Below, in pieces: positions 71 to 17,434 of a DNA stretch of 32,870 nucleotides; the first letter of the stretch is position 1, and the number at the start of each line of letters is the position of its first letter. The notes below the pieces were generated by a model. It was not told the DNA's origin, did not search any database, and saw nothing but the letters and a program-made list of their open reading frames with translations. Origin of the DNA: an uncultured Parabacteroides sp. (GTDB lineage Bacteria; Bacteroidota; Bacteroidia; Bacteroidales; Tannerellaceae); assembly GCA_946055095.1 (NCBI GenBank), contig CAMGEM010000005.1, positions 1 through 32,870 on the forward strand. The letters are read 5' to 3'. Both the position numbers and the translations under genes were made by a program.

Positions 71-2569
71 CTACTCCAATGGCAGTTTCAACAGCGTGAC
101 CGAGTTGGGCGGAAAGACATAATAGGGAGACCCCAGCGGGAAAGAGACGGAAAGGTGTTGCGGCACCACGGCCTGAGGCGCAGCAAAGCTGTTGCGTGCA
201 TCAGGCTCTCCCTTGATCTGAATCGCCTCACCCGTGCCAGATACCGTGAATCCGTCAAAATGCAAAGCGGTACGCTCCTCATGCTGCGTGGTGTTGACCA
301 CCTTCAGCAACAGCTGCTGGTTTGCCTCATCCACCGTGGCGACGCAGGCCAATGCGGGAATCGTAGGCCACTCCACCTCTTGCAACAAGCGACCATCCAC
401 ATAGCAAGCGATACGATTCTCATCACACTCCAACCGCACCGCATACCAGCGATTGCTCTCGAAGGCGGAGGGGGCTGATTGGGCCAGCGCCTCTTTCACA
501 CTGCCCGACTGATGGTAAAACTCGGCTTGACCACCTCCTAACGTTAAGCAGAGATAGTCCGCCTCATCCCCCGTCCGACCGTTATCACAGAAGCGAACCT
601 CCACCGTACCGCTCCCTTTCGTCCGACGTAGCTTCAACGAGAAAACGGTATGGATCGTCGCACTATCCCCCACCAACAGTCGATTCCAACGATTCGCCTC
701 CGCGACGGGTTGGCCTATAGCCGGCAGCTTCCATCCGCCACTCAACACCTCCAACCGACTCACAGGTTGGCCATTGATCTGCACATCTGTAAACTCGAAG
801 CTGTTGTCGAACAGAAAAAGCCCCGGACGACCCATTCGTACGCCTGGCCGCCTATAGGTCTCCACCTCGCTCTGCAACAACTTATCCCCTCGATGCGTAG
901 CAAACAATTGCCACACCTGATAGGAGGGCGACAGGGCTACGCTGTCCCGGAAAAAGCGGATCAAAGGCTCTCGTTGAAGCGCAAACCCGGTATTCCCCAA
1001 GACAGGCGAATAGGCCAACCGACGCACACGATCCGGGTTGTTCTCCGCACCGATCAAAAAGCAAGCCTCCGCAATTGCCGCCCGCAAAGTGCCTGCCACC
1101 CCTCGCTCCGCTGTACCCATCTCCCCTACGAAAGCAGGGGCCTTGCGACGTGGATAATTGGGGTTATCAAATCGCGACGTGTTGGAAAGGAAAAAACGCG
1201 CATTCGCATAGAAGTGGCCATCCACCCACTCCAAACGATTGGTCCGGTCACTCACCGAGGCACTACTGATCACCGTGACCTCTGGATAGGCCGCCTTAAT
1301 GGCCGCCTCAAACAAGACAAAACGGCGCTTATACTCAGGGCCCTGATTCTCGCTGCCAATCTCCACATACTTCAAGCCGAAGGGGGCCGGATGTCCATGC
1401 TCAGCCCGCAAGCCACCCATGGCCGAGTCTGCCGGCGCATTGGCATAGGCTATAGCGGCCAGTGCCTCGTCCACCAGCTTGTCCATCGCCGTGATGTCCT
1501 CAAAACGGGGCCGACGGCTCTGGCTCGTCACGCCACTATTGATCACATAGATCGGCTCTGCCCCCAGATCCTCACAAAGCTGCAAATACTCGTGATACCC
1601 CATGCCGTTGGTCGTTCCATAGGCCCAGACGTTCCAGAAACTTTTCCGATTAGCCACATTGCCCACCGTCTCTCGCCAAGTGGGGAAGGTACCCGCCGTA
1701 TAGCCCTCCACGAAACTTCCTCCGGGAAAGCGAATAAAGCGAGGCGCCAAAGAGTCGATCAAGGCCACCAAGTCTGGCCGCAACCCGTTGTCTCTCCCCT
1801 GCCAGGTCTCTTCCGGAAAGAGGGAGACCATGTCTATCCAAAACATATTCGTCGTATCGGAGGTGAGCGCCAAGACCGCATCCGGCACATCGGCTGTCGC
1901 CGTGAACGTATGTTCATAACGACGCCACTCCGGGATGGGAGCGACCTCATAGACCTCACTCAGCGCCGTTGTCACCTGCTCATCAGCCAATCCAACCCGT
2001 ATATTTCTGGGCACCAAGCTCGTACCTTTAGCATAGAAAGAACAGCGATAACGCTTTCCTTGGCGAAGGGGAATCCCCCGATAGCCCTCCGCCACTACTC
2101 CTCCCGGACCGCTCTCCGACGTGGCAGAGACAGCCACCAACAGCGAGCGACGGTTCCGCTCATTGATCAGCTCACGGGTATCTGGATAAAGTTGCGTCAC
2201 AGCCGGGTTCAACCGACGCCAACCCGGCAAAGAATCACTACGGAGAAACGGGATGGTCCATCCATTCGGGGTGATCAACACATTGCGTGTCGCATCATAC
2301 GGGCAGTTCAGGGGAGGCATGCCATCCTCAAAACTCCGGTTCTGAATCAATTCGGCATAGAGTCCACCATCCATGCCATGATTGATCTCCTCCAAGGTCA
2401 AGCCGTAAAGGTCTGGATTCACAGCCACCTCCTGCCGATCTTTATGCACGGTAATCGACGAGCTCATCGGCAACTCCGACTGACAACCAACCCCCATGCT
2501 GAGTAACAACCACCAAGCGACGCAGCGTCCAATCGCCTTGATCCTCTTAACTATATTTCGTATGCTCAC
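71..2569 (-). CDS. Alpha-L-arabinofuranosidase (GH51-type), lipoprotein, with C-terminal LamG/concanavalin-like region
   Basis: 832 aa ORF. N-terminal lipobox-like LLLSMGVGC; motifs VNPDLYGLTLEEINHGMDGGLYAELIQNRSFED, FIRFPGGSFVEGY, YVEIGSENQGPEY, VGEMGTAERG are typical of the family; C-terminal LamG-like stretch. Confidence 0.9.
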   Translation of the reverse strand: MSIRNIVKRIKAIGRCVAWWLLLSMGVGCQSELPMSSSITVHKDRQEVAVNPDLYGLTLEEINHGMDGGLYAELIQNRSFEDGMPPLNCPYDATRNVLITPNGWTIPFLRSDSLPGWRRLNPAVTQLYPDTRELINERNRRSLLVAVSATSESGPGGVVAEGYRGIPLRQGKRYRCSFYAKGTSLVPRNIRVGLADEQVTTALSEVYEVAPIPEWRRYEHTFTATADVPDAVLALTSDTTNMFWIDMVSLFPEETWQGRDNGLRPDLVALIDSLAPRFIRFPGGSFVEGYTAGTFPTWRETVGNVANRKSFWNVWAYGTTNGMGYHEYLQLCEDLGAEPIYVINSGVTSQSRRPRFEDITAMDKLVDEALAAIAYANAPADSAMGGLRAEHGHPAPFGLKYVEIGSENQGPEYKRRFVLFEAAIKAAYPEVTVISSASVSDRTNRLEWVDGHFYANARFFLSNTSRFDNPNYPRRKAPAFVGEMGTAERGVAGTLRAAIAEACFLIGAENNPDRVRRLAYSPVLGNTGFALQREPLIRFFRDSVALSPSYQVWQLFATHRGDKLLQSEVETYRRPGVRMGRPGLFLFDNSFEFTDVQINGQPVSRLEVLSGGWKLPAIGQPVAEANRWNRLLVGDSATIHTVFSLKLRRTKGSGTVEVRFCDNGRTGDEADYLCLTLGGGQAEFYHQSGSVKEALAQSAPSAFESNRWYAVRLECDENRIACYVDGRLLQEVEWPTIPALACVATVDEANQQLLLKVVNTTQHEERTALHFDGFTVSGTGEAIQIKGEPDARNSFAAPQAVVPQHLSVSFPLGSPYYVFPPNSVTLLKLPLE

Positions 2570-7722: not shown

Positions 7723-7730
7723 TATCTTTG
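7723..7730 (+). promoter_or_regulatory. Putative housekeeping -7 element TATCTTTG upstream of the ECF sigma operon
   Basis: Exact TAnnTTTG match in the 170-nt intergenic region. Confidence 0.4.
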
Positions 7731-7773: not shown

Positions 7774-7805
7774 TTTGCAGCGTTTCGGTCACAGCTTGCA
7801 TCTGT
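7774..7805 (+). promoter_or_regulatory. Candidate ECF (autoregulatory) promoter TTTGCAGCGTTT-N12-GCATCTGT
   Basis: Positioned ~45 nt before the sigma start; resembles -35 (GCAACG-like) and -10 (CATCT/CGTC-like) elements of Bacteroidota ECF promoters. Pattern recognition only. Confidence 0.35.
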
Positions 7806-7850: not shown

Positions 7851-8390
7851 ATGGACGAACTACAACTGATAGAGGGTTGTCGGAAGGGCGATAGACGTGC
7901 GCAGAAGGCACTGTATGAGACCTTTTCCCGCAAGATGATGAGCGTTTGCCTTCGCTACGTGAGCGATTGGGAGACAGCTCGTGATCTCTTGCAAGAGGGT
8001 TTCGTAAAAGTCTTTACCCACATCGACAGCTACACCGGGAATGGTTCCTTCGAGGGGTGGATCCGGAAGATCTTTGTCAACAGTGCTTTGGAGTATTTAA
8101 GACACGCGGATGTACTGCGGGAATCGACCGACTTAGACCAAACGGCAGAAGTGGCACAGACCGACAGCTCACCCCTATCGGACATCTCGGCCGCAGAGCT
8201 CATGCAGTTGGTCCAAAGCCTTCCCGCTGGTTTCCGAACGATTTTCAACCTCTTCGCTATCGAAGGGTATTCGCACAAGGAGATCAGCGAGCGATTGCAC
8301 ATCACGGAGAGCACCTCCCGTTCGCAATACACACGGGCAAAGCAGCTGTTGCAACGAAAGGTCAATGCCTTATATGGAGAAAGAAGATGA
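7851..8390 (+). CDS. RNA polymerase ECF sigma-70 factor (Das-like partner of the dual membrane-spanning anti-sigma)
   Basis: 179 aa; ALYETFSRKMMSVCLRYVSDWETARDLLQEGFVKVFTHI (region 2), GSFEGWIRKIFVNSALEYLR, LPAGFRTIFNLFAIEGYSHKEISERLHITESTSRSQYTRAKQLL (region 4). Confidence 0.95.
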   Translation: MDELQLIEGCRKGDRRAQKALYETFSRKMMSVCLRYVSDWETARDLLQEGFVKVFTHIDSYTGNGSFEGWIRKIFVNSALEYLRHADVLRESTDLDQTAEVAQTDSSPLSDISAAELMQLVQSLPAGFRTIFNLFAIEGYSHKEISERLHITESTSRSQYTRAKQLLQRKVNALYGERR

Positions 8391-9598
8391 TGAACGAGGA
8401 ACGAGATAAATGGGATGAGGCCATTCAGGCCAAACTGTTCGACCACGAGGTGGAGCCAATGCCAGAAGATTGGGCAGCGATAGCCAACCGACTGCCCGAA
8501 AGGCAGCCTGTCGCCTTTCGTTATTGGTCAGCTGCCGCAGCCGCGGTCTTAGCCCTCGTTGTAGGCGGCGGTATCTACCTGTTCGAGCCAGATCCAGCGG
8601 TAGTTCGTCTGGCCGATGAGACAAGGGGCATGGGAACAGACACTCCTGCCGCTCCTGCCGCTGCGCCTTCTGTGCCGCCTATTTCAGCGGCTACCACACC
8701 TTCGGTCACCTCCTGGGTGGCCCAAGCCCATCCTTCCCGATCACTTCGGGCCTCCGCGCAACAACCTGTCGAGCAAGCCACGGCTCAGGAAACAGCCCAA
8801 ATAGCCGTGGTTGAGCCCTTACAGCGTGAGGAGGCTCCACAGGAAGAGGAGGCTCCTCAAACGCCGGTCGTCAGCCAACAACCTCGCACCAAAGCGGCTG
8901 ATGCCGCAGCACCCACACCCCTACAACCCGCTAAACAACGGAGATGGAGCTTTGGGATGGGAGCTGGCAACCTTTCGGTCGGGACATCACAACTGGTGCC
9001 GCACTATGTGACCAACAGCGCGGCTTTACGCAGTGAAAACCTGATGAGCATGAACACATGGGGTGCGATCAAAGAGGCCTCACCCAAGACGGATATCCAG
9101 CATCATACGCCTATCAGCTTTGGAGTTTCGGTAAGCCGACAGCTTTCCAACCGCTTCTATTTACAGACGGGATTGAATTATAGCTATCTGCGTTCGGAAT
9201 GGTCCACCAATGGCACCTACCACACCGAGACCGATCAACGTTTGCATTTCCTGGGATTGCCTCTCTCGATCGCCTATCGCATCGCCGAGTGGAACCGTTT
9301 CCTGTTCTATGCTTCTGCCGGAGGCATGGCTGAGGTCAATGTGGCAGGCAAACAACAGTTACAACTTTTCAGCGACGAGATCGCTATTGTTAAACAAACG
9401 GAACATATCCGCATGAAAGAATGGCTGTGGTCGGTGAATGGTAAAGTGGGGGTCAGCTATCCAATCATTCGGTTTGTGAGTGCCTTCGGAGAGGTCAGTG
9501 CCAACTATTATTTTGACAATGGCAGCACGATCGAGACCATTCATTCAGAGAAGCCGTTTACAATCGGGTTCAACATGGGATTCAGGTTGGGATTTTAA
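8387..9598 (+). CDS. dma: Dual membrane-spanning anti-sigma factor (Dma-type): cytoplasmic anti-sigma-like N-terminus, single TM, disordered linker, outer-membrane beta-barrel
   Basis: The ORF track gives 8057..9598, but the start is the ATG at 8387 in an ATGA overlap with the sigma stop (403 aa). Residues ~1-45 are cytoplasmic (WDEAIQAKLFDHEVEPMPEDWAAIANRLP), TM ~47-66 (WSAAAAAVLALVVGGGIYLF), linker ~67-186 rich in P/A/Q/E, then an OMP barrel (RRWSFGMGAGNLSVG ... SFGVSVSRQLSNRFYLQTGLNYSYLRSEW ... NMGFRLGF) ending in Phe. Confidence 0.85.
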   Translation: MMNEERDKWDEAIQAKLFDHEVEPMPEDWAAIANRLPERQPVAFRYWSAAAAAVLALVVGGGIYLFEPDPAVVRLADETRGMGTDTPAAPAAAPSVPPISAATTPSVTSWVAQAHPSRSLRASAQQPVEQATAQETAQIAVVEPLQREEAPQEEEAPQTPVVSQQPRTKAADAAAPTPLQPAKQRRWSFGMGAGNLSVGTSQLVPHYVTNSAALRSENLMSMNTWGAIKEASPKTDIQHHTPISFGVSVSRQLSNRFYLQTGLNYSYLRSEWSTNGTYHTETDQRLHFLGLPLSIAYRIAEWNRFLFYASAGGMAEVNVAGKQQLQLFSDEIAIVKQTEHIRMKEWLWSVNGKVGVSYPIIRFVSAFGEVSANYYFDNGSTIETIHSEKPFTIGFNMGFRLGF

Positions 9599-9651: not shown

Positions 9652-10419
9652 ATGAAAGTATTTAAGTGGATGGGCACGCTCGCAGTAGCTGTGTCATTAT
9701 TAACCTCCTGTTTAGGAGAGTCAGACAACCGCTTCACTCGTCAAGGATTTGCGGTAGCAGGTGTATCTGAGAAGAGTTACAAAACGGTGTTATATACCTC
9801 TTATGGCCCCATGTATTCCGCCAACCTGATGTCGCAGGTGGTTGATGGCGCTTGTTACACGGTTCAGTATGAGGTGGATCTGAACGCTCCTGAGAACAAG
9901 ACCCAGACCATGGATTACTACACGGCAACCATCACGGTGTTTGATGAGGTCAGCAAGGGCAACACGGTCTTCTATAATGTCCCCGATACCACGACGATGA
10001 TGGCAGAAGAGCAAGTAGTGACCAACGTGGCAGGTTTCACCGGTGAGGTGGGTGGCTACCTGAACGGCTACCTGTTCCTCAATGCGACATTGAACGAGCT
10101 GAAGGAGCAAAAGAACAACTTCACGCTCTACTGGGATCGTAGCAAGGAGGCAGAAGAGAACAGCGAAGGCATTCCTACCTATACCCTGTTCTTACGTGTC
10201 GTGAAGATCGCTGATGGCACGGGTTCGGCAGCAACCTCCACCAATGAGATCCGGGCTTATCGCCTGAAAGAGGTGATCGACGCTGTCAACAAGACAGAGG
10301 CTGAGAAAGGCTCTGATCGTTTCAACCTCCGGATCAACTACATCAAAGAGGCCTCTGAGGAGGGCAAACCGAGCTGGGACAAGTACGATTATCAGTTCGC
10401 TGTTTACAAGGAATCCTAA
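9652..10419 (+). CDS. nigD: NigD-family lipoprotein
   Basis: 255 aa; lipobox SLLTSCLG; YGPMYSANL, YTVQYEVDLNAPEN, NNFTLYWDRS, ending YDYQFAVYKES, resemble NigD-like proteins; sits directly after the sigma/anti-sigma pair. Confidence 0.75.
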   Translation: MKVFKWMGTLAVAVSLLTSCLGESDNRFTRQGFAVAGVSEKSYKTVLYTSYGPMYSANLMSQVVDGACYTVQYEVDLNAPENKTQTMDYYTATITVFDEVSKGNTVFYNVPDTTTMMAEEQVVTNVAGFTGEVGGYLNGYLFLNATLNELKEQKNNFTLYWDRSKEAEENSEGIPTYTLFLRVVKIADGTGSAATSTNEIRAYRLKEVIDAVNKTEAEKGSDRFNLRINYIKEASEEGKPSWDKYDYQFAVYKES

Positions 10420-11416: not shown

Positions 11417-12847
11417 ATGTATATTAGCGAAGAAGAGATATTGGATCACCTCAACACCAAGCCCTTTCGACTCATTGCTGAGGCGGCGGACGAGTTGGGC
11501 GTGGAGGCCTATGTGATAGGTGGGTATGTGCGAGACCTCTTTCTGAATCGTCATTCAAAAGATATTGACATCGTAGCCGTTGGAAGCGGCATTGAGCTGG
11601 CCAAAAAGGTAGCACATAAGTTCGGACGCAAGGTATCGCTTTCCGTATTCAAGAACTTTGGAACCGCACAGGTGAAATGTGATGACTTGGAATTGGAGTT
11701 TGTCGGTGCCCGCAAGGAATCATACAGCCATGACAGTCGGAAGCCGGTGGTGGAGAATGGCTCCTTGGAGGACGACCAAAACCGCAGAGACTTCACGATC
11801 AACGCCATGGCCCTATGCCTGAATGCCGATCGGTATGGAGAGTTGGTGGATCCATTTGGCGGGATTGATGACCTGGAGGACTTGACGATCCGTACACCGC
11901 TTGATCCGGATATTACCTTTAGTGATGACCCTTTGCGCATGATGCGAGCCATTCGCTTCGCCACGCAGCTGGGCTTTTTCATCGAGCCAGACACCTTTGA
12001 GGCCATCGAACGCAACAAGGCACGCATCGAGATCATCTCCCGCGAGCGTATCGTGGACGAGTTGAACAAGATCATACTCTCCCCCAAGCCCTCCTACGGC
12101 TTTGAGCTGTTAGACCAATGCGGGTTGTTAGACTATATCTTCCCTGAATTGACAGCCTTGAAAGGGGTAGAGACCAAAGAAGGCATTGGCCATAAAGATA
12201 ACTTCGCCCATACCCTGATGGTCTTGGACCGCTTGAGCCGCACGACCGACAAACTTTGGCTACGATGGAGCGCCCTGTTCCATGATATAGCCAAGCCCGC
12301 CACGAAACGATTTGACAACCGATTGGGATGGACGTTCCACAACCATAATTTCATCGGCGAGAAAATGATTCCCGGCATCTTCCGGAAGATGAAACTGCCG
12401 ATGAACGAGAAGATGAAGTATGTACAGAAAATGGTGAGCCTTCACATGCGCCCGATCGCCTTGTCAGACAATGAGGTGACCGACTCCGCCATTCGCCGTT
12501 TGCTGTTCGACGCAGGGGATGACATCGACGATCTGATGCTGCTTTGCGAAGCGGACATCACCAGCAAGAACCCGGACAAGGTGCGCCGCTTCTTGGAGAA
12601 TTTCCGAGAGGTGAGGGCTAAGTTGGCGGAGATAGAGGAGAAAGACCGTGTGCGCAATTTCCAACCACCCATCAGTGGCGAGGAGATCATGCAACTCTTC
12701 GGATTGACCCCCTCCCGCCCGGTAGGTGTCTTGAAAGAGGCGATCAAGAATGCCATACTCGATGGCGTGATCCCCAACGAGTATGAGCCGGCCAAAGCCT
12801 TCCTCTTGGAGAAGGCGGCTGAGATGGGAATCACCCCTATAGCCTAA
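11417..12847 (+). CDS. CCA tRNA nucleotidyltransferase / poly(A) polymerase family with HD domain
   Basis: 476 aa; [62 protein letters not shown] (HD). Confidence 0.93.
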
Positions 12848-15800
12848 CCACCTCCACCTTACTGCTTGAGCTGTGTCCCTCCTGGATCACCTGGATCTGT
12901 ACGGGGATACGCTCTCGCAACTCCTCCACATGGCTGATGAGACCTACCTGACGATGGTTATGTTTGTGCAACATCCGCAGGGTCTGTACAGCCTGCTGGA
13001 GATGCTCCTCGCTGAGGGTGCCAAAACCCTCGTCGATAAAGAGTGTATCCACCTTGAGATCCGCTGAAATATCAGACAACGCCAATGCCAAGGAGAGCGA
13101 CACCAAGAAGCTCTCACCACCCGAAAGGGTGCTTGCCATCCGGCGAGTATAACCTTGATAGGCATCCTCCAACGAAATGATAAAGGTGCCAGGCACTACC
13201 TGCAATTGATAGCGATTGGTCAGCATTTGCAGATAGTGATTAGCCGCATGGATCAAATGGCCCAACACATAGCTTTGCGCTATCTTCCGGAAACGTTGCC
13301 CATCCGCACTGCCCAACAGCTCATTGAGCCTACTCCACCGTGTATAGAGGAGTTTACGTTTTTCCGCCTCCTCCATCAAATGCAGCTGGTTGCTTCTGTT
13401 TTGCGCATCTCGCTCCAACTGACTCCGAAGCGTTCCTTTCCGCACCAGACTATCCTTCAAAGCCTGCTCCTGCTGGGCCAATAACGACTCCAAGTAGGCC
13501 GGTTGCGTCTCTTCCTCCGTCATCGGCGGCTTTTGCGCAGCCAGCGCAGTCTGATCCTGCTGAATCTGACGCAATGCGGATTCCCGTTCCACCCGCAACT
13601 GTCGGATAGCCTCATTCGCCCGGCTCTTTTCGGCAATCCATGTGGGAGCATACTGATCCAACTCCGCCAACCGGGTCAACGTATATTCGGGATGAGCCTC
13701 CACATAGCGATCCAACTCCGCTTGCAACCGCTCCTGTTGCTGTTGGTTATTGGCCGCCTGATCCAAGGCTGAGCGCAAATCCGCATAGAACTGGTTCCAC
13801 TCCGCCACAGGTTGCTTTACGTTAGCTTCGCCCACTACCGGCAAATCCTGCCAAGCGGGTTGACAACGCCAAACCTCCTGCCGGATCGTCTCAACCTGCT
13901 CCAGCAGCTCCCGCAAACGGCTCTCCTCTTGCGCAACCTGTTGTTCCTCCTGTTGCCAGCGCATATAGCGTTCAGACGCTTCCCTCAACTGACGCAAGAA
14001 CTCCTCTGGATGGGTTGACCAGACCGCCTGCCAAGCCGGGACAGCCTCCAACATAGCCTCCATTCTTTCCGCTGTCTGTTGAGCCTGTGTTTGATGAGTC
14101 GCTAACTGACTACGATGATTCTCCAAGCTCTTGGCCACCAAGGCCACTGAACGATCACACTTAGCCAACTTTTGCTGCATCGCCTCATGCGCCTTACGAG
14201 CCTTTTCTAAGGCCTGACGAACCTGCTCCACCACCTCTCGCTCAAAACGTTCAGCCGCCTCGATCTGTCGATCGGTGGCCGACTGCCTGGCCGTGAGGAT
14301 CCGCTCATAATCGGCCAAGGTTTGCATGGTCTGCTCATTCACCTCCGTTATATGGCACTGTTGGCAATCAGACACGCTACGTTCCGCTTTCGCTTGAAGA
14401 GCCACTCGCTCCTTTTCGAGTGCTCTCTGCCGCTCCTCTGCCAACTCCTGTTGCAAGATGTATGCTGAACTGACCTTCGCCAACCGCTCCTGTTGCTCCT
14501 CCATCTGCTTTTGAGCCGCTCGCAACTGCGCCTCCACCTCCCGATAAGCCTGATCCCATACGGCCTCATGCGGAAGCGGATCTGGAATCACCTGCCCACA
14601 GACCGGACAATGATCCCCCGCCTTCAATTGCGCCCGCATCGCTTTCGCCCACTTGTCGATGGTGCGTTTCTGCGCCTCCCAATGCTGTTGACAAGTGGCG
14701 AAGAAGGATTTATATTGCGCGTCCAACTGCTGTTCCACGACCTGCTGACGAGCCAACTCCGCTTGCTTGGCCACACAAGCCGCTGCCTCCTGCTCATGCT
14801 GAGCCAGGAGCTGCTTCGCCTCCATCCAAGCCTGCAAGCTATGCTTTGCGTTGTTGAGTAAGAGTCTCTTTTGGTTGCATAGCTCTTTCGTCTGGCGTAA
14901 AGCTGGCAGGCCCATCTGCTCGAACACCTGCTGCTGAGCCATTAGTTGATCCTGTAGATCCGCTACCTGCCGCTGGGCTTCTCCCGCCTTGGCCTGTACC
15001 TTCTCCCACTCGACTTGCAGCGATTGCCCCTGTGCCGTTTCTTGCGCAATCTCATGGGTCAACCGCTGAGCTGCCTCTTTCAGCTGCCTCCATTGGGCGA
15101 CCTTCTCCGCGATCACCTGACTCTGCGCATAGACCGGGGCTTTCTCCCCCTCCGCTCGCAAGGCCAACCGCAGCTGCTCCACCTGCGCCTGACACGCCAT
15201 TCGCTGACGTTGCCATCCACACAACCCTTGCGATAGGCGCAGATAAACGGACTGTTTCTTTTGAAGTTCCTGCTGCCATACGGCTGCTTGCGACACACAC
15301 AGCCGCCAATTACGTGCTAACGCACGCACCTCAATCGTCTCTTTCCATGCGCTTACCTCCTGCTCTTGCCGACGGAAATCGGCTGACTCCATCTGGCTGA
15401 CGATCGCTGCCCGTCGCTCCTCAGCAATCTTTCGCTTCTGGCTCAAAGCCTCAAACTGCGTCAACCAATCTCGTTTGCGCAGCGTTACAGCCTTCGCCGT
15501 TTGCAGCTGTTCGATCGATAAATCCAACTGCCTCAACTGCTCCTGGTAGTCGGCAATCTCCGCTTCGGAAAATAGCTGAACCGCCTCTACCTCCTGTCTT
15601 TTCAGCTGATAATCGACCTCTTTCTGACGGGTTATCTCATAGATCTTCCGGCCAATCCGCGCATAAGCCTCCATGCCGGTAATCTTCTCCAAGATAATCG
15701 CCTTCTCATTGTCGTTACTATTGAGGAAACGGGTGAACTCTCCCTGCGCCAATAGCGTAGTTCGGCAGAACTGGCCAAAGTCTAAACCGACAGCCCTTTG

Positions 15801-16247
15801 AATAGCCGCTTTTACCTCCTGTACCCGGGTCAGTAACTGCCCCGTTCGCACATTCAACAAACTCCACTGCCTATCCTGTAATTTGGCATTCTCCCGTTTA
15901 CGCGCACGAGCCACGCTCCATTGCGCCTCATACGTCACCCCATCACTTCCCTCGAAGCTGAGTTTCACATAGGCCTCTCCTGTATGCTGACGCATCAACT
16001 GACGAGGGTCTTTGATGGAAAGCGAGTCTTTCACCTCATCAAACCTACCCTCCATCTTCAGGTTTCTCATCCGAGGGGTATCGTCATACAACGCCAAGCA
16101 GATCGCATCAAGCAAGGTTGATTTGCCCGACCCGGTTTTTCCTGAGATCAAGAACACCTCGCTATCTACCAATGGAGCTGCTTCGAAATCAACCGTCGCA
16201 TCCTCAATCGAGGCAATGTTATGCAATGTGAGCTGTTTTAATTTCAT
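12837..16247 (-). CDS. sbcC: SbcC-like exonuclease subunit (AAA/SMC-type ATPase)
   Basis: 1136 aa; [21 protein letters not shown] Walker A, long coiled coil with zinc hook [23 protein letters not shown] signature and [12 protein letters not shown] Walker B. Confidence 0.93.
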
Positions 16248-16258
16248 AGGTCATTCGC

Positions 16259-17434
16259 TTATTCCTCCCGCTCCTCCGCTTGAAGCTGGGTCAAGGTCTC
16301 TTTAAACAAGGAGACCAAATCCTCCTCGAAGTCGATCCCCTTATCTTTCGCGTACAACGTGGCAATGTCTAATGGGCTGAGTTGTTGAATCTCGGCGGTC
16401 GTGAACATACGTCCTCCCTCACTGTCCGACTTGCGTTCCTTCCGTTGCGCCTGAATCAAGCAGAATCGGCAAGTCTTCCCCTCCGCAATCGAAGCGGCCT
16501 CCATCTGGGCTCCGGGAGGCAAAAAGTCGTCCACCTCCACACGCAGTCGGATATAACCAGGTTGCTCATCGGGGAAAGCTTGGAAGAGGGATTTGACGTT
16601 GTCCCAATCAGCAGCCTCCGAAACAGGCAGGGTAATCAGCGGCCGAGGATTCATCATCTCAATCGCCTCAACACGCGGTGCATCCCCGTGGTGATCAAGC
16701 TCCACCCATGACACGGAATGCGGATAGCACTCATCAAAATGAACCGGCAAAGGCGAACCACAATAGCGTGCCCGACCCTCGCTGCCTCTCACCTCCTGCG
16801 CATGGTGGATATGCCCCAAGGCCAAGTAGTCATAACCGGATCCAAAAAGCGAGAGATCCCATCCCTCGATACCTCCGACAGCTTCACCCTCAGCATCCGC
16901 ATGGCCCGTAGCGTCGCTTCCCGACACATAGGTATGAGCCGTTAAGATCACCGGCAATCGCTCCGGGTTACGTTCAGCCACCCGATCCAAGAGCCGCTGG
17001 AAAAAACCTTCCGGCAGATTGCGCTCATGCACATAAGGCACACCCACTACAAACCCTTTGCCTGGAAGTTCTACGATATAATGGTCTGGCGACTCTTCCC
17101 GGTTCACTAACCCAATGGCTATCACGCCCAAGGCCTCCCAAGCCGTCCGAAAGATCTCATGGCGAGTAGCGCTGTCGTGATTGCCCGCCAACAACAGGAT
17201 CTTCATAGCCGGAGCCGCCGCACGAATACGCATCAAGGCATTGATAAACAGTTGTTGCGTGGCGGCATTCGGTTGTACCGTGTGATACACATCTCCGCAG
17301 AGCAAGAAAAGATCGGGCTGTCGCTCCGCTACGATACGAGTGATCTGATCCAGCATCGCCTGTTGCTCTTCGCTCCGATCGTAGTTATAGAGGGTATGCC
17401 CCAAATGCCAATCGCTGGTATGCAAGACCTTCAT
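16259..17434 (-). CDS. sbcD: SbcD-like exonuclease subunit (metallophosphoesterase)
   Basis: 391 aa; KVLHTSDWHLGHTLY, LFLLCGDVYH, LAGNHDS, HTYVSG, LALGHIHHAQ. Confidence 0.94.
   Translation of the reverse strand: MKVLHTSDWHLGHTLYNYDRSEEQQAMLDQITRIVAERQPDLFLLCGDVYHTVQPNAATQQLFINALMRIRAAAPAMKILLLAGNHDSATRHEIFRTAWEALGVIAIGLVNREESPDHYIVELPGKGFVVGVPYVHERNLPEGFFQRLLDRVAERNPERLPVILTAHTYVSGSDATGHADAEGEAVGGIEGWDLSLFGSGYDYLALGHIHHAQEVRGSEGRARYCGSPLPVHFDECYPHSVSWVELDHHGDAPRVEAIEMMNPRPLITLPVSEAADWDNVKSLFQAFPDEQPGYIRLRVEVDDFLPPGAQMEAASIAEGKTCRFCLIQAQRKERKSDSEGGRMFTTAEIQQLSPLDIATLYAKDKGIDFEEDLVSLFKETLTQLQAEEREE

Follow-up and report, generated by a model that had tools for sequence, protein, structure and literature searches.

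The window (the whole stretch of 32,870 nucleotides analysed here, from an uncultured Parabacteroides sp.) contains a sigma factor gene, a barrel-protein gene and a gene for a NigD-like lipoprotein, all on the forward strand and preceded by two candidate promoters (Table 1). The barrel-protein gene overlaps the sigma gene by 4 nt and is followed, after a gap of 53 nt, by the NigD-like gene. The sigma factor also matches TIGR02937 (6e-28), and it scores 92 against the Bacteroidota model TIGR02985, for which the cut-off is 126. For the barrel protein, no NCBIfam model scored above its cut-off.

Table 1. Features of the sigma factor-barrel-NigD operon, in positions of the window.
Feature	Position	Strand	Basis
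TATCTTTG, candidate basal promoter	7723..7730	+	match to housekeeping -7 box; aligns in most relatives
TGCAGCGTTT-N13-CATC, predicted ECF sigma factor promoter	7776..7802	+	conserved motif upstream of sigma gene
ECF sigma factor, Das1-like, 179 aa	7851..8390	+	Pfam Sigma70_r2 (8e-15), Sigma70_r4_2 (8e-14)
Dma1-like anti-sigma barrel protein (predicted), 403 aa	8387..9598	+	Pfam, AlphaFold2 model, Foldseek, alignment of relatives
Cytoplasmic anti-sigma head (predicted), residues 1-45	8387..8521	+	helices at 3-19 and 26-35 in model
Inner-membrane helix, N-in (predicted), residues 44-65	8516..8581	+	AlphaFold2 model, charge pattern
Disordered periplasmic linker (predicted), residues 67-185	8585..8941	+	pLDDT, length statistics
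Outer-membrane beta-barrel (predicted), terminal Phe, residues 186-403	8942..9595	+	Pfam, Foldseek
NigD-like lipoprotein (255 aa) with a signal that ends in LLTSC	9652..10419	+	Pfam NigD_N-like PF22221 (E 2e-17)

Gene boundaries and conservation of the operon

The mechanical reading frame runs from a GTG (8057..9598, 513 aa) and is 110 codons longer than the gene itself, as the initial annotation had argued. The start at ATG 8387, giving a product that ends in GFRLGF, is supported by its overlap with the sigma factor stop (TGA, 8388-8390) as ATGA, and by the relatives, which start at the equivalent position, mostly with M-x-x-K/E-x-R-D. A second in-frame ATG, at 8390, is a possible alternative start, with a product one residue shorter.

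That the protein is encoded in 28 of 41 close genomes (E <= 0.001, most matches near full-length) and at 79 loci in a scan of named genomes, mostly of Parabacteroides and Tannerella (the best match, L031, being 80% identical), argues against a chance reading frame. Of 197 Bacteroidales genomes sampled with a profile, 126 gave matches, although a large share of the weaker matches extended over the N-terminal half only. A paralogue search returned no second copy in the source genome, which is 84% complete. The neighbourhood is also maintained. With neighbours recognized by position, length and sequence start, and not by a family search for each, almost every locus covering the region has an ECF sigma factor gene immediately upstream, either overlapping or no more than about 33 nt away, and nearly every one has a NigD-like lipoprotein gene as the next gene downstream. 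The same order appears to be kept in several other Bacteroidales families (L152, L155, L156, L159, L162, L165).

A four-part protein predicted to span both membranes

The C-terminal part of the protein matches Pfam OMP_b-brl_2 (residues 186-375, E 2e-11), an AlphaFold2 model places well-predicted strands there (residues 235-375 mostly at pLDDT > 90), and Foldseek matches the barrel model to OmpA, OmpW, NspA and OmpX. In 65 of the 74 aligned relatives the chain ends in Phe. The barrel that had been read from the sequence is thus corroborated, and the structural check on this domain produced an OmpA/OmpW-like barrel, not a soluble fold. Automatic annotation would probably call the whole product a porin family protein.

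The linker in front of the barrel (119 aa: A25, P18, Q13, T11, E10, V10) has pLDDT below 50 across residues 87-165 and is poorly conserved in sequence, the mean frequency of the majority residue among the 74 aligned proteins being 0.27 for the linker versus 0.57 for the head and 0.62 for the barrel; its earlier description as low-complexity and rich in Pro, Ala, Gln and Glu holds. Its length varies from 97 to 167 aa and is never below 97 aa. The contour length of an extended chain is about 0.36 nm per residue, so that even the shortest linker, of 97 residues, would provide some 35 nm, enough for crossing a periplasm.

The single hydrophobic helix noted at the outset is likewise found in the model, and the best 19-residue hydropathy window lies at residue 48 (mean 2.04). 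Lys and Arg residues flanking the helix average 4.7 on the N-terminal side and 1.8 on the C-terminal side, and the N-side count equals or exceeds the C-side count in 74 of 74 aligned relatives, a pattern that predicts a cytoplasmic N-terminus. The charged head, too, is as first described; it has two predicted helices and conserved positions, W29 being invariant and E21, I32 and L36 nearly so. Sequence searches (Pfam, and the family profile against PDB sequences) assigned the head to no known anti-sigma domain, the PDB matches being weak (best E 0.02). All four parts occur in unchanged order across the 74 aligned relatives. Together, the model, the conservation and the charge pattern support the proposal of a single chain composed of a cytoplasmic head, an uncleaved inner-membrane helix, a linker of periplasmic length and an outer-membrane barrel. 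The neighbouring sigma and NigD-like genes, which account for this design, and the predicted role of the head as anti-sigma domain for the adjacent ECF sigma factor were absent from the initial annotation.

Predicted promoters and a candidate second regulon gene

Alignment of relatives reveals two conserved boxes upstream of the sigma gene. The first resembles the Bacteroidota housekeeping -7 box, whose consensus is TAnnTTTG. The second follows the consensus TGCARCRTTT-N13-CRTC, with the layout of an ECF promoter; of 71 named loci, 61 have an exact TGCARCRTTT ahead of the sigma gene, and in almost all of those 61 the distance to CRTC is constant. The copy at 7776-7802 is the sole match in the window at 0-1 mismatch (0.05 expected), and across 16 same-genus genomes the whole motif matches 56 times versus 5 for the reversed pattern. 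As the motif is conserved, of ECF type and located upstream of the sigma gene, autoregulation is predicted, with the ECF sigma factor driving its own operon from this site. We restrict the promoter claim to Tannerellaceae, since the other Bacteroidales families examined lack the exact motif or have a degenerate form of it, with a TGCAGCTAT variant in a few. At three loci from such families (L155, L159, L162), TGCAGCTAT(T/C) lies upstream of the sigma gene at unchanged spacing to CRTC, which suggests that the promoter may have drifted along with the sigma factor.

The source genome contains three matches to the motif: the one in the sigma operon, C78:3256-3282 and C2:49867-49893. The C78 match (minus strand; locus L140/L176) is exact and lies 33 nt upstream of an unannotated ORF of 77 aa for a single-helix membrane protein, beginning MRLLILSFFAVLLGYSLLFDQQEE... 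(MRLLILSFFAVLLGYSLLFD...), which has no Pfam family and sits between what we read from sequence as nqrF and AMP nucleosidase genes. Of 25 same-genus genomes, 22 contain relatives of this ORF, and the motif occurs without mismatch 30-40 nt upstream in all 17 Parabacteroides copies with an assignable start (60-77 residues), the source genome included. On the strength of this association, the small membrane protein is predicted to belong to the sigma regulon, as its second member after the operon. The third match, also exact, lies 51 nt upstream of a gene resembling a nucleotidyltransferase/aminotransferase fusion; it may be due to chance and is left out of the regulon count. The promoter motif and the small membrane protein look new, provisionally so, as neither was found in a search of the Dma literature that left Pardue et al. 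(2024) and its supplements outside.

Relation to the Dma family and a proposed mechanism

The Das1-Dma1-NigD1 system of Bacteroides thetaiotaomicron has been described by Pardue et al. (2024, PNAS 121:e2321910121; as cited in PMC12596196 and PMC13088901). Dma1 restrains Das1, and the release of Das1 raises both nigD1 expression and vesicle production; the related Dma2 has an anti-sigma head, a TM helix, a disordered tether and a C-terminal barrel, along with a cognate ECF21 sigma factor, and a dual-membrane topology is reported for Dma proteins of this species (PMC13088901). In the protein described here, from a gut Parabacteroides, the barrel, the single TM helix with its cytoplasmic head and the disordered tether are all predicted, in agreement with every part of the published plan, and an ECF sigma gene is adjacent; by these features, the ones that can be tested in sequence, it is a member of the Dma family. 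The adjoining NigD-like gene, a matter of gene neighbourhood alone, speaks for Dma1 over the other Dma types, and by the published domain plan and gene order the protein is most likely the Parabacteroides counterpart of Dma1. The topology was first judged exceptional, which was fair from sequence alone, and the arrangement is striking; as the Dma family was described in 2024, however, the claim to novelty is not supported.

The two systems share the domain order, the adjacent ECF sigma gene, the NigD-like protein and hosts within Bacteroidota; they differ in that Dma1 is known from Bacteroides, while the present one belongs to Parabacteroides and Tannerellaceae, is known from its genes and is compared by description. 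Dma2/Das2 shares the four-part protein and the adjacent sigma gene, of ECF21 type in its case, but the dma2 operon has DUF4943/DUF4858 neighbours, not nigD, and is limited to B. thetaiotaomicron and close relatives (PMC13088901). Dma3 shares family membership and the general plan, but has the sigma domain fused at its N-terminus (PMC13088901); such a fusion is found here not in the window but in a same-genus genome (L029:358-2007), where sigma regions 2 and 4, a tether and an OMP barrel form one protein of 549 aa. Regulators of the FecR/FpvR type likewise have a cytoplasmic head and one helix and put an ECF sigma factor under outer-membrane control, but their receptor is a separate TonB-dependent transporter, whereas the protein in question joins the sensor barrel and the anti-sigma head in one chain.

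It is very probable, in our judgement, that this Dma1 counterpart holds the upstream ECF sigma factor by its head, senses an outer-membrane or surface condition by its barrel, and activates the operon by releasing the sigma factor. This reading draws on the barrel, helix, linker and head, on the sigma and NigD neighbours, on the L029 fusion, on the promoter and on the published Dma plan. The head would bind the product of the adjacent upstream sigma gene and hold it, the chain would cross the inner membrane once, and the disordered tether would span the periplasm to the small barrel in the outer membrane. When the condition sensed by the barrel changes, the head would let go, probably through proteolysis or a pulled tether, and the freed sigma factor would switch on the operon that encodes it, with the NigD-like lipoprotein gene, and probably also the gene for the small membrane protein elsewhere. 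In B. thetaiotaomicron the output is an increase in outer-membrane vesicles; we infer sigma binding, repression and vesicle output here from that species. As to the manner of release, proteolysis in the linker or helix, as in the RseA/FecR systems (PMC9249621), is the conservative guess, and a pulled tether the bolder one. There is perhaps a slim chance of a further elaboration, in which the intact chain, pinned in both membranes, would read the distance or tension between them, bulging of the outer membrane as vesicles form would directly pull the head off, and the two-promoter regulon (the operon and the small membrane protein) would feed back on blebbing.

Cleavage might also be constitutive: the whole chain would be made, and a cut in the periplasm would then set the barrel free, leaving the head and helix to repress the sigma factor on their own. 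The linker is exposed to proteases and other anti-sigma classes are controlled by cleavage (RseA; FecR, PMC9249621), but the parts are joined in the same order in all 74 relatives, with the linker never under 97 aa, and a barrel that is permanently cut away would have no reason to stay fused, making this quite improbable. That the head is needed for activation of the sigma factor and not for its restraint, a notion based on some FecR-type regulators with a similar head and single helix that activate their own sigma factor (PMC9249621), is very unlikely, given that sigma output is activated in B. thetaiotaomicron when dma1 or dma2 is deleted (PMC13088901) and that the sigma-barrel-NigD operon has no TonB-dependent receptor gene next to it. 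Scarcely credible, and rejected, is an ordinary outer-membrane barrel with a signal peptide cleaved close to residue 66 and a head that is no more than a long leader: Gly-Gly-Gly after the hydrophobic core might form a weak signal peptidase site, and the Pfam match makes a porin-type annotation probable, but an n-region of 45 residues far exceeds those of Sec signals, the head is helical in the model and far better conserved than the linker, and an ECF sigma gene precedes the barrel gene in nearly all loci.

With the anti-sigma reading, the Dma1-type system, known from Bacteroides, would extend as a tight operon-level unit across Parabacteroides and Tannerella, supplied with a testable promoter sequence and a candidate regulon gene, and genes annotated as porin family proteins beside ECF sigma genes in Bacteroidota may turn out to encode regulators.

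Two other regions of the window deserve mention. An alpha-L-arabinofuranosidase is encoded at 71-2569 (minus strand); the match to its C-terminal domain covers residues 493-823 and seems to be interrupted by a laminin-G-like domain at about 667-737. Adjacent SbcC-like and SbcD-like genes occupy 12837-17434 (minus strand), the SbcC-like gene converging on a PolyA polymerase/HD gene (11417-12847) with an overlap of 11 nt.
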